Assembly: GCF_032884065.1 (NCBI RefSeq)
Contig: NC_088871.1
Location: forward strand, 16,290,374-16,354,373
Reading direction: 5' to 3'
Source of the DNA: Artemia franciscana
Lineage: Eukaryota > Arthropoda > Branchiopoda > Anostraca > Artemiidae
Length of the DNA: 64,000 nt
Shown: positions 44,401 to 56,400 of the stretch, one piece after another
How the letters are laid out: each line of letters begins with the position of its first letter
How positions within the stretch are numbered: position 1 is the stretch's first letter
The notes under the pieces: generated by a model
Seen by the model: only the letters and a program-made list of their open reading frames with translations
What the model was told of the DNA's origin: nothing
The model's database searches: none
Translations under genes and position numbers: made by a program

Positions 44401-47400
44401 AATATACAACATTCTTGGCTGTCCCATTGTCTGTGCATATAAATAGATTGTCAGGTTTACCGACTCTTGAACATGCAACATATAATTGTACATGGGAAAA
44501 ACAATCTGTATTCAGATCTATACCTCATTATTCTAATGATTGCCCTTGAGCTTTGTTGATGGTGATTACTAATCGAACATTCCCTGTGTCCCCGTCGTAA
44601 TCTATATATTCCCCTGTGCCCCCGGCGTCCCCGTTGTTGTTGTTTCCCTGTGTCCCGGTCGTCATTTGTGTCCCGGTGTCCCAGTCTGTAATTTCTCTTT
44701 GAGTGTCGCAGTCGTCATTTATATTCCCTGTGTCCCGGTGTCCCGGTTGTCATTTTTGTCCCGGTCGTCATTTGTGTTCCGGTGTCCCGGTCTGTAATTT
44801 CTCTTTGAGTGTCCTGGTCGTCATTTATATTCCCTGTGTCCCGGTCGTCATTTGTGTCCCGGTGCTTTGTTCATGGTGATTGCTAATCGAACATTCCTTG
44901 TGTCCTGGTCGCTTTCTCTTTGAGTGTCCCGGTCGTCATTTATATTCCCTATTTCCCGGTGTCCCGGTCGTCATTTGTGTCCCGATGTCCCGGTCTGTAA
45001 TTTCGTTAGTCGACAAACATGACGTCAGTCGACACACAAACATGACGTCACTCGACAGACACACAGACAACTTATTTTTATATATATATAGATATGAGTA
45101 AAATTTGAAATTTGTCTTCAAATTCCCTTTTGAGTCAACATAGAAGAAAAAACCTCAGCTTCACGCAAGTAAGTTATAAATTATTTGAAAAAAAGATCTT
45201 AAGCAAATGACTAATCTATATATATAAAAATAAGTTGTCTGTCTGTCTGTGGATGGATGGATCAGGTGACGTCACCTGAAAAAACTGGATCAGGTGACGT
45301 CAAAACTGAAAAAACTAAAAAAAGGCAAAAACTACAAAAAAAACTAAAAACTAATAAAAACAAAAAAAACTAAAAACTAATAAAAAAAATAAAAAAGCTA
45401 AAAAACTAAAAAAACTAAAAAACTAAAAAAAGGTAAAAAACTAAAAAAACTAAAAACTAAAAAAAACTAAAAAAAAGGAAAAAACTGAAAAATAAGCTAA
45501 AATAAAGGTAAAAACCAATAAAAAACTAAAAAAAAAACTGAAAAAACTAAAAAAAGGCAAAAACTACAAAAAAACTAAAAACTAAAAAAAAAAGTAAAAA
45601 AGCTAAAAAACTAAAAAAACTAAAAAAACTAAAAAAACTAAAAAAAGGTAAAAAACTAAAAAAAATAAAAATAAAAAAAAACTAAAAAAAAAGGAAAAAA
45701 CTGAAAAATAAGCTAACATAAAGGTAAAAACCAATAAAAAACTAAAAAGAAAAAAAGGAAAAAACTAAAAAAAATTTTCATCTAAAAAACTAAAAAAACT
45801 AAAAAAGGTAAAAACTAAAAGAACTAAAAAAGAAAAAAATAAATGACGACACTCAAAGAGAAAGCGACCAGGACAAAAGGAATGTTCGATTAGCAATCAA
45901 CAAAGCACCGGGACACAGGGAGTATAAATGACGACCAGGACATAAGTAAAAAAAAAAATTAACAAAACTAAAAAGAAGGTAAAAACTACAAAAAAACTAA
46001 AAAGAAAAAAAAACTAAAAACTAATAAAAAAACTAAAAAATCTAAAAATCTAAATAAACTAAAAAAGAAAAAAAAAGGAAAAAAATAAAGGAGAAAAACA
46101 AAACTAAAAAACGAATGTATATACAGACCGGGACACCGGGATACAAATGACGACTGGGACACAGGGAATATAAATGACGACCGGGACACAGGGACACAAC
46201 TACAACGGGGACACCGGGGGAAACAGGGGGATGTAAATGACGACCGGGACACCGGGACAGGGAATGGTCGATTAGCAATCACCATCAACAAAGCTCAAGG
46301 GCAATCATTAGAATCATGAGGTATAGATCTGAATACAGATTGTTTTCCCATGGACCATTATATGTTGCATGTTCAAGAGTCGGTAAACCTGACAATCTAT
46401 TTATATGTATATTCGCAAGTTTTACGTAGTTAAAACCATATATATATATATATATAGATATATATATATATATATATATATATATATATATATATATAGA
46501 TATATATATATATATATATATATATATATATATATATATATATATATATATATATATATATATATATATATATATATATATATCTATATTCACAGGTGGG
46601 ACATAGGGACACAACTACAATGGCGCGTAACTATTATGGCGCGTAACGACTTACGCGCGCGGGGGGGCTTGGGGGGGGGGGCGCGAAGCGCCCCCACCAA
46701 CTAGGTGTTGGGGTGGCGCGAAGCGCCACCCCAACAGCTAGTATTTGATATTTTCCTACTTTAGGTTCCCTCTTGAGTCAGCATGGAAGAAAAAAAACTT
46801 ACTTTCACGTCAGTAATAATTTATATAGTATTTGAAAAAAAATTTACAAAGCAAAAAAACTAATCTTTGACATTTTTCTTTTTCAGGTTCCCATTTGAGT
46901 CAACTTAGAAGAGAAAAAAAACCTCAGTTTCACGTAAGTAAATTATTGATTATTTGAAAAAAAAACTATTATCAAGCAAAAAACTAATCCTTGATATTTT
47001 TCTTTTTCAGGTTCCCTTTTGAGAATACATGGAACGAAAAAACCTCAGTTCCAAATTTTCAAATTATTAATTATTTGAAAAACAATTTGCTTAAGCATAT
47101 GACTAATATTTGATAATTTACTTTTTCAGGTTGGTTTTTGAGTCAACATGGAAGAAAAAAACCACAGTTTCACCGACGTAAGTTATCAATAATTTGAAAA
47201 AAAAAATTATTAAGTATATGACTAATATTTTCTTTTTTTCTTTTTTAGGTTCCCTTTTTAGTCAAAATGGAAGAGAAAAGTCTCACTTTCACGTAAGTAA
47301 GCTGTAAATTATTTGAAAAAATATACTTAAGCATGTGACTAATATTCGATATTTTTATACTTAAGGTTCTCTTTCGAGTCAACAAGGAAGAAAAAAACCT

Positions 47401-53400: not shown

Positions 53401-56400
53401 TATGACTAATATTTGATATTCATTTTCTTTTTCAGGTTGCTTTTTGAGTCAATATGGAAGAAGAAAAATCTCAGTTTCACGTAAGTAAGTTATAAGTTAT
53501 TTGCAAAAAATTGATATCAAACGTAGGAGTAGTAAATTTTGTTTGTCTTTTCCAGGTTCTCCTTTGAGTCAAATGGAAGAAAAAACTTCCGTTTCATGCA
53601 AGTAAGTTATAAATTATTTGGAAAACAATCCTTCTTAAACATATGACTAATATTTGATATTCACTTTCTTTTTCAGGTTCCTTTTTGAGTCAACATGGAA
53701 GAAGAAAAATCTCATTTTCACGTAAGTAAGTTATAAGTTATTTGCAAAAATCTTATATTAAACGTAAAGGTAGTAAATTATGTTTGTCTTTACCAGGTTT
53801 TCCTTTGAGTCAAATGGAAGAAAAAACTTCAGTTTCATGCAAGTAAGTTATAAATTATTTGGAAAAAAATCCTTCTTAAACATATGACTAATATTTGATA
53901 TTCATTTTCTTTTTCAGGTTCCTTTTTGAGTCAACATGGAAGAAGAAAAATCTCAGTTTCACGTAAGTAAGTTTTAAGTTATTTGCAAAAAATTGATATT
54001 AAACGTAGGAGTAGTAAATTATATTTGTCTTTTCCAGGTTCTCCTTTGAGTCAAATGGAAGAAAAAACTTCAGTTTCATGCAAGTAAGTTATAAATTATT
54101 TGGAAAACAATCCTTGTTAAGCATATGACTAATATTTGATATTCATTTTCTTTTTCAGGTTCCTTTTTGAGTCAACATGGAAAAAGAAAAATATCAGTTT
54201 CACGTAAGTAAGTTATAAGTTATTTGCAAAAAATTGATATTAAACGTACGAGTAGTAAATTATGTTGTCTTTTCCAGGTTCTCCTTTGAGTCAAATGGGA
54301 AAAAAACTTCAGTTTCATGCAAGTAAGTTATAAATTATTTGGAAAACAATCCTTCTTAAACATATGACTAATATTTGATATTCATTTCCTTTTTCAGGTT
54401 CCTTTTTGAGTCAACATGGAAGAAGAAAAATCTCAGTTTCACGTAAGTAAGTTATAAGTTATTTGCAAAAATCTGATATTAAACGTAAAGGTAGTAAATT
54501 ATGTTTGTCTTTACCAGGTTTTCCTTTGAGTCAAATGGAAGAAAAAATTCAGTTTCATGCAAGTAAGTTATAAATTATTTGGAGAACAACTCTTATTAAG
54601 CATTTGAGTAATACTTGGTATTTATTTTCTTTTTCAGGTTCCCTTTTGACTCAACATGGAAGAAAACTCTTCAGTTTCATGCAAGTAAGTTATAAATTTT
54701 TTGGAAAACAAACCTTCTTAAGTATATGACTAATATTTGATATTCATTTTCTTTTTCAGATTCGCTTTTGAGTCAACATGGAAGAAAAATAGCCTCAGTT
54801 TCACGTAAGTAAGCAATAAGTAATTCGAAAAAAACTGAAATTAAGGGTATGAGTAGTAAATTGTATTTGTCTTTTCCAGGTTCCCTTTTGAGTTAAATGG
54901 AAGAAAAACTTCAGTTTCATGCAAGTAAGTTATAAATTATTTGGAAAACAACCCTTCTTAAACATATGACTAATATTTGATATTCATTTTCTTTTTCAGG
55001 TTCGCTTTTGAGTCAACATGGAAGAAAAACAGCCTCAGCAGGTAGACAAGTTGTATTTTTCTGAAATAAAAAATTCCAACGAGGATAGGAGTGGTACGCA
55101 AAAGCTCAGCACGTGCGAGGACCACAACACCACCACAAGCCCTTCCTTTACCCTTAATGTCAAACAACCTTAATCAATCCATCAAAAATGAGCAAGTTAC
55201 GGACATTATCGGAGAGAATTTGGTCTTGTAGACATAATACATCATAGCAACGCATAAGCTCGCATAGGATAGACCTTTTATTCACCACAGAGCCATTAAT
55301 GTTCCAAGTAGTTGCTCTTAACAAGCGACTCATTTAATCATCTTTAGAACTTCAGAACACTTATAGGACATGCAAACATGTTTACTTTTCCCATAGAGAG
55401 CACATTTATCGCAAGCTGACATGGGTTGCCTCGTCTGTTTTTAGGTGGCCCACTGCAGTTCGAGCATTTTGCAGGTTTTTCATATTTATGGGTAGTGTAG
55501 CCATAAGCCTAGCAACTGTAGCAGCGGGGAGGGATAAACTTGTATTAGGAGACAGGTAGACGCTCATAGGCAATAATAGGGGGGTTATCAATTACCCAGT
55601 GCTTTTTTTATTTGGTTTCAAGTTTTAAACAAGCCTGTCTCTGAGGAGACAGGTCGTAGCACTGCTATGTCCATCAAAGCTTCCGTTTTCGAATAAGTAA
55701 TTCAAAGATCGTTTGGGAAAAACAATTACAAATTAGTATATCACTCATACTTGGTCATAATTTTATAAATCACTGGACAAAAACATTACGGATTAAAACA
55801 TGACAAATATTTAATATTCCTCTTTCATGTTCTCTTATGATTCGCCACGAAGGATGAGAGCACAGTTTCAACTATGTTAGCCATAAATGTTTGAAATGAC
55901 ATTAGGATTTTAAATATTTCAGTAAAGTCAACATGGAGGATGAAATTTTGGTTTTGAGCAAGTCACTTATATTTTTTTTTATAATGAACCCTTTACTTTT
56001 AGTTTCAATTAAATAAGTTATAGAGCATTAAAAAAACAGGTTTTTTTACTAATAAATAATACTTTATTTTTTTTATGTTCTTTTTTGAGGAGCATGGAGG
56101 AGCTCTGCCTTCAAATAAGTATGCCTTAAGTTATTTTATACAATGACTGTTACCACCTGACTGATATTTGATCATTTTCGTATTCTTTTTCTATATTTGT
56201 GTAGTCTTTACTAAGCTAGCCAGAGGCGTCATCTATTGCGCTGCCACATTGTGTTCTTTACAAAAAATGTGGATTTTAAGCTAATTAAAAAAAAGATCCC
56301 AGTCCACATTAGTGGTTCAGGATCACTAAATGAAAAATCTTATCTCTTATTGCCTTTCAAAAAATGACTAGAATAAAGAATCTCAATTATTTTTAATTAT

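Follow-up and report, generated by a model that had tools for sequence, protein, structure and literature searches.

How should a tandem series of about 70 micro-exon-like units, running antisense inside an intron of the ferroportin gene of Artemia franciscana, be understood: as an exon-array gene, as a fossil of such a gene that was amplified into a satellite, or as something else? The series lies in a stretch of 64,000 nucleotides (hereafter the window; C9:16290374-16354373, on contig NC_088871.1) of a 1.27-Gb assembly of 6468 contigs, and the original prediction had offered the first two answers. The amplified-satellite fossil fits our results, and the exon-array gene lacks support. We lean towards a satellite resembling an RNA polymerase II (Pol II) transcription unit, in which a promoter head followed by micro-exon and minimal-intron units would give rise to spliced non-coding RNA. 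This reading builds on the anatomy of the sequences, their dispersal, the relaxed evolution of the units, and the conservation, among intact heads, of a pair of cyclic AMP response elements (CREs) and of the 5' splice site (donor) of a putative exon 1.

The predicted array itself was borne out and exceeds what chance would give. Profile alignment placed 71 plus-strand units of ~120 bp each at 46736-55054, every one an exon-like block with splice-site-like borders (acceptor border TTTTTCAG/GTTC), and five more outside this interval, giving 76 units in the window. The alternation of A and B units was present and is reflected in the tandem period of 241 bp (31 copies at 47583-55029) reported by Tandem Repeats Finder; so was the predicted 39-nt unit, at 49727 (predicted at 49725). 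Two 241-bp stretches 3350 bp apart in the array were 100% identical. Head, array and Helitron insertions (described below) all fall within one ferroportin intron, with units and head on the plus strand and the two flanking FPN1 exons on the minus strand, which bears out the antisense position. No Rfam family reached the gathering threshold in the window. The array and its borders are laid out as follows.

36641-36892, minus strand: FPN1 (ferroportin) exon, profile positions 149-215 (Pfam PF06963, E 8e-13), one border of the intron
46742-47582, plus strand: heterogeneous, older section, whose intact blocks mostly measure 43-47 nt, chiefly 44 (regular expression and profile)
47583-55045, plus strand: homogenised A/B dimer array, period 241, with A block of 45 nt and B block of 42 nt (39/40/41 variants)
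55046-55660, no strand assigned: foreign stretch breaking the array end, with a zinc-knuckle-like coding remnant on the minus strand, seen by eye
55782-56170, plus strand: right-edge units, degenerate (profile match at 55782-55888, the remainder by eye)
56664-56807, minus strand: FPN1 (ferroportin) exon, profile positions 105-147 (E 3e-08), the other border of the intron

Do the blocks keep a reading frame, as had been claimed? A regular expression found 61 canonical blocks over 46.7-57.5 kb (45 nt in 27, 42 nt in 24, 39 nt in three, 41 nt in three, and 47, 43, 40 and 38 nt in one each), so the claim that blocks are multiples of three held for 54 of the 61. It failed for the rest. Frame-breaking blocks additional to those that had been named were present, for example those at 46887 (47 nt), 47561 (38), 47674 (43), 54638 (43) and 54880 (41). 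In the profile alignment, where 72 units span both borders, 55 of the 66 C9 units with both splice dinucleotides intact had blocks divisible by three. Whichever of the two open frames is read, 11 of 64 blocks were broken; the in-frame stops foreseen at 48521 and 51401 were found, at 48522 and 51401, in one of these frames, and the indel units at 51521, 54278 and 54518 had blocks of 40 or 41 nt. Joined C9 blocks nevertheless gave a stop-free stretch of 567 codons, which can arise without selection because two open monomers were amplified.

The window array belongs to a family dispersed across the genome. A 241-bp query gave at least 315 matches on C3, C4, C8, C9 and C10 (38 of 268 candidates scored), with two sites on C4, near 5.18 Mb and at 23.14-23.42 Mb. 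Part of these matches were fetched as stretches L021-L040, and in these plus the window the profile detected 960 units (C4b 619, C8 84, C9 76, C10 62, C3 60 and C4a 59), at a density of 85-86 units per 10 kb across L031-L034. The family consensus has a 44-nt block, the donor GTAAGTAAG, and TGACTAAT ~20 nt before a pyrimidine tract that is followed by CAG; it is, in form, a candidate exon plus a minimal intron. Long head-to-tail arrays homogenised within a locus, and related arrays at several chromosomal sites, are what is found in satellites, and both were observed here. Three C10b copies (30.73, 30.78 and 35.76 Mb) are segmental duplicates, with homology extending at least ~1.5 kb upstream, nearly or fully to the fetched limit. 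A near-unbroken array of ~44 kb with a 119-bp period occupies C4:23145241-23190000 (L030-L035), far larger than the array in the window.

Phase compatibility did not hold up as a property of this family. Among units with both dinucleotides intact, the commonest block was 45 or 42 nt in C9 and 45 nt in C8, and it was 44 nt in C4b, C4a and C3 and 43 nt in C10 (31.8 Mb); the core monomer of C10b also has a 43-nt block. Multiples of three made up 55/66 in C9 and 25/45 in C8, compared with 8/28 in C10, 2/27 in C3, 2/39 in C4a and 14/530 in C4b, and consensus blocks of 44 or 43 nt, when joined, stayed stop-free for just 33-43 codons. Given that block lengths by locus are mostly not divisible by three, divisibility belongs to the dimer that was amplified in C9 (and to about half of C8), and the multiple-of-three lengths in C9 arose by accident, through the dimer that happened to be amplified there, as chance would give. 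Phase compatibility within one homogenised array is thus not to be equated with coding, since a single amplified dimer puts all units in frame.

Variation among units points the same way. In homogenised cores, after units covering <85% of the model had been dropped (keeping 362 of 378 units in C4b, 32 of 33 in C4a and 28 of 40 dimer hits in C9), variant frequencies in blocks and spacers were 0.0349 and 0.0267 in C4b, 0.0413 and 0.0329 in C4a, and 0.0333 and 0.0367 in C9 (P 0.51, 0.44 and 0.71). The essential AG/GY splice dinucleotides were not depleted of variants in these cores (P 0.59, 0.52 and 0.19 for C4b, C4a and C9). All 28 A blocks of the C9 core were 45 nt, and the B blocks were 42 nt in 21, 41 in three, 39 in three and 40 in one, so that 4/28 break the frame. 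In the diverged arrays C3, C8 and C10, 53%, 64% and 51% of units kept both dinucleotides, close to the 0.545 expected from the four per-site identities multiplied; block and spacer identities were 0.851 and 0.850 in C3 and 0.868 and 0.859 in C8, and block conservation by codon phase in C3, C8 and C10 had phase means of 0.897, 0.854 and 0.843, given without a significance test. Block sequence and length are therefore without detectable selection, with the reservation that weak selection per unit would not show, because the units are redundant. This outcome speaks against an exon array under coding selection and comes close to the equality of blocks and spacers that the original prediction had itself named as counting against it.

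What precedes the arrays is of a different kind. A head lies at 38110-38262, 6.8 kb ahead of the first unit, with nested Helitrons now in between; we noticed it by eye, through its motif. Its parts are listed here with the units that adjoin it.

37638-38054, plus strand: three degenerate units just 5' of the head (profile)
38126-38133, plus strand: first TGACGTCA of the head, a CRE-type palindrome (motif)
38171-38178, plus strand: second TGACGTCA of the head (motif)
38193-38204, plus strand: TATA-box-like CTATAAGTATAG, with a related AT-rich stretch in other heads
38224-38228, plus strand: initiator-like TCAGT, 32 bp past the TATA box, with a putative +1 at 38226
38226-38253, plus strand: putative exon 1 of 28 nt without ATG, with its 3' border at AGAGAAAG/GTACTAGT
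38254-38261, plus strand: putative exon-1 5' splice site GTACTAGT, with GGTA identical across six aligned heads

Heads were found upstream of same-orientation units at five loci (C9, C4a, C4b, C10a and C10b), and degenerate unit-like sequence also lies directly upstream of those in C10a, C4b and C10b. The unit arrays of C4b are separated by a repeated stretch of 617 bp, the last ~200 bp of which recur just before the first C4a units (E 2.6e-16), at C10a (E 2.9e-22) and at C10b; between the putative exon 1 of C4b and the first unit lie ~65 nt of intron-like sequence that end in CTTTCAG. Pairwise identity in the five-head alignment was 54-65%, with the 16 CRE columns 0.975 identical compared with 0.574 over 247 other columns, and each head kept both CREs at 94-100%. 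The top 8-column windows were the two CREs, followed by the exon-1 donor (P 0.0038 by shuffling the 222 columns present in all five), and the initiator was only loosely kept among the other heads. A pattern of the CRE pair plus AGGTA matched nine times in nine oriented stretches, each time in a profile-detected head. C9, C4a, C4b and C10b each combine an intact pair of CREs with a homogenised core, and neither was present in full in C10a or C8; this association between CRE-intact heads and homogenised cores is suggestive, the number of loci being small. At C4 23.40 Mb (L040, 3360-6950), a head and its following units repeat every ~2.5 kb as a higher-order repeat, with a promoter-like stretch in each copy.

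A mechanism that would accommodate both the drifting units and the better-kept heads can be outlined from this anatomy. The head would supply two CRE-type palindromes, a TATA box, an initiator, an exon 1 of ~28 nt and a 5' splice site, and downstream of it would lie tens to hundreds of head-to-tail units, each with an ancestral ~44-nt micro-exon and a ~76-nt minimal intron composed of the donor GTAAGTAAG, the branch-point-like TGACTAAT, a pyrimidine tract and a closing CAG. Transcripts would begin at the head and have their exon 1 joined to one or several of the units, so that a heterogeneous non-coding RNA would result. The units themselves would expand and homogenise locus by locus like those of any satellite. 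Transcription, splicing, a non-coding product and a promoter retained for a function, be it of the host or selfish, are what these sequences would predict. More tentatively, and with low confidence, the loci could be maintained Pol II loci with the satellite as gene body, where a promoter with CRE and TATA elements, together with an invariant exon 1, would feed tens to hundreds of interchangeable splice acceptors and yield combinatorial non-coding RNA, as a PIWI-interacting RNA (piRNA) precursor or a structural satellite RNA. If our preferred reading is true, this is a satellite organised as a gene, in which a partly conserved promoter drives drifting, interchangeable exon-intron units, and it gives a concrete case for asking why certain satellites get transcribed and spliced. 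No description of a satellite made of micro-exon units turned up in the literature searched.

Several observations weigh against this transcription-unit-like satellite. A profile built from six heads recovered two more, both decayed: the C8 head keeps the donor and 11 of 16 CRE letters, and in the second C4a copy an AT microsatellite replaces the CRE part. C10a itself has one CRE mismatch, and one C10a copy is without the second CRE. The five-row conservation figure leaves out the C8 and second C4a heads, and its C9 row was picked via the motif, so this choice favours the figure. The C3 stretch yielded no head, only a weak opposite-strand match (E 0.003). C10 blocks were more alike than their spacers (0.872 and 0.807), which argues against strict neutrality there. 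Nine 3' tail segments from six loci had neither a common sequence after the last unit nor a 3' end or poly(A) site in common. A fossil last exon was considered and rejected, as the similarities among tails past their units came from dispersed repeats, whose positions differed. The original prediction had recognised no first or last exon; the head supplies a putative first one, and for the last the statement stands, none being common to the tails compared. Finally, a selfish element that founds new arrays from its active copies would also fit the conservation of the promoter.

The Helitrons bear on where the array starts. It had been placed at 46742, a position that directly follows a Helitron inserted into a unit and is not the true start.

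38296-45091, no strand assigned: nested Helitron insertions within the putative first intron; inner boundaries only approximate
43142-44392, plus strand: Helitron_like_N open reading frame (E 6.7e-57)
45092-45182, plus strand: single unit (profile)
45092-45214, plus strand: first unit after the head, together with the left-hand portion of the unit that the next Helitron interrupts (profile)
45215-46741, plus strand: Helitron (5' TC..., 3' hairpin followed by CTAG) lying within a unit, where its insertion point separates A from T in ...TGACTAA/TATTTGAT...

Among the alternatives, we take most seriously an ordinary untranscribed satellite carrying relics of the exon, intron and promoter of an ancient gene, under no current selection, and we consider it possible though rather unlikely. 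It agrees with the neutral look of the units, the homogenised cores, the decay of the edges and of several heads, and the missing common 3' end, but in a uniform relic one would not expect five heads that are 54-65% alike overall to retain both CREs at 94-100%. An improbable candidate, by analogy, is a uni-strand piRNA-cluster-like locus of the flamenco type, with a Pol II promoter and a constant exon 1 variably spliced into a transposon-trapping array. The promoter, exon 1 and many alternative acceptors would suit it, as would the Helitrons and other repeats inside several arrays; however, the array is mostly unit and not transposon, and the Helitrons in the arrays lie in both orientations.

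The two remaining explanations appear highly improbable. A protein-coding micro-exon or exon-array gene, the stronger reading of the original prediction, would account for the 55/66 intact C9 units divisible by three, the 45-nt A block in all 28 core dimers and the 567-codon open stretch, and all five amplified monomers (A, B, C4a, C4b and C10b) have intact splice borders, for which chance would be ~0.05 at 0.545 each. Against this, 44- or 43-nt blocks elsewhere break a joined frame within ~43 codons, blocks vary as spacers do, 4/28 B blocks break the frame, and there is neither an ATG in the putative exon 1 nor a shared last exon in the tails compared; the locus-by-locus phase of the block lengths, the variability of the cores and the frame-breaking indels led us to reject the coding array. 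That the array could consist of tandem repeats internal to a Helitron, or to some other mobile element, and have spread with it is no more credible than coding: Helitrons are present in several arrays and the 3' end of one exactly abuts the window array, but that Helitron (45215-46741) splits a unit, with TGACTAA and TATTTGAT on its two sides, and the unit predates it because it is interrupted by it. The same element also starts at this unit spot in C8 and C4b, and the C10 copies are segmental duplicates whose homology runs upstream. A Helitron-internal satellite was rejected, given that the array does not lie between Helitron ends and that a unit is split.

Known systems resemble the proposed satellite in part. 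With satellite DNA under concerted evolution it shares head-to-tail units, locus-specific variants, distant identical copies, decayed edges and dispersal over several chromosomes; it differs in that the units resemble an exon plus a minimal intron and that several arrays are preceded by a promoter-like head carrying a 5' splice site of its own. Dscam-type loci combine arrays of mutually exclusive exons with a constant downstream exon, and the likeness lies in a series of seemingly alternative exons that all follow a shared, here putative, upstream exon. The tails compared here contained no such constant downstream exon, and choosing among units would yield no diversity, unlike in Dscam-type arrays, because the units are nearly identical. 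Bicycle proteins carry a paired CYC motif and a signal peptide. The aphid bicycle and megacycle genes have many micro-exons (>100 in megacycle), internal tandem duplication and one exon phase, and are protein-coding (PMC9168663). Many micro-exons and internal tandem duplication recur here; a constant exon phase does not, with 43- and 44-nt blocks at most loci. Schistosome micro-exon genes similarly have very short exons in series (PMC10526429), but the spacers here are ~75 bp and not long introns, symmetric exons are not found family-wide (only C9 with 55/66 and partly C8 with 25/45), and instead of a coding first exon with a secretion signal there is a putative exon 1 of 28 nt without ATG. 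The Drosophila locus flamenco has an initiator (Inr) promoter, a constitutive exon 1 and differential splicing (PMC4120762). Transposon insertions in the body are common to both; a Pol II promoter, a single invariant first exon and numerous potential downstream acceptors are predicted here, the sequence elements of promoter and exon-1 donor being present and conserved among intact heads. The differences are a body of satellite and not mainly of transposon fragments, and CRE plus TATA in place of the Inr/downstream promoter element (DPE) with CI of flamenco (PMC4120762).

Three observations concern the mobile elements around the arrays. The same kind of Helitron begins at the same unit spot (ACTAA/TC) in arrays on three chromosomes, which would reflect either target preference or an inherited insertion:

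Window, 45215-46741
L021 (C8), near 5578
L038 (C4), 1062-4099

The palindrome TGACGTCA occurs 22 times in the window against 0.33 expected; two copies are in the head and most others in or around Helitron sequence (34872-45302), as if head and Helitrons were under one shared bZIP-type regulation. Dispersed repeats related to stretches of the window, including a ~299-bp tandem repeat, abut or interrupt several unit arrays:

Window, 14454-16944 and 58359-61104
L024, 847
L035, 2094
L039, 4433

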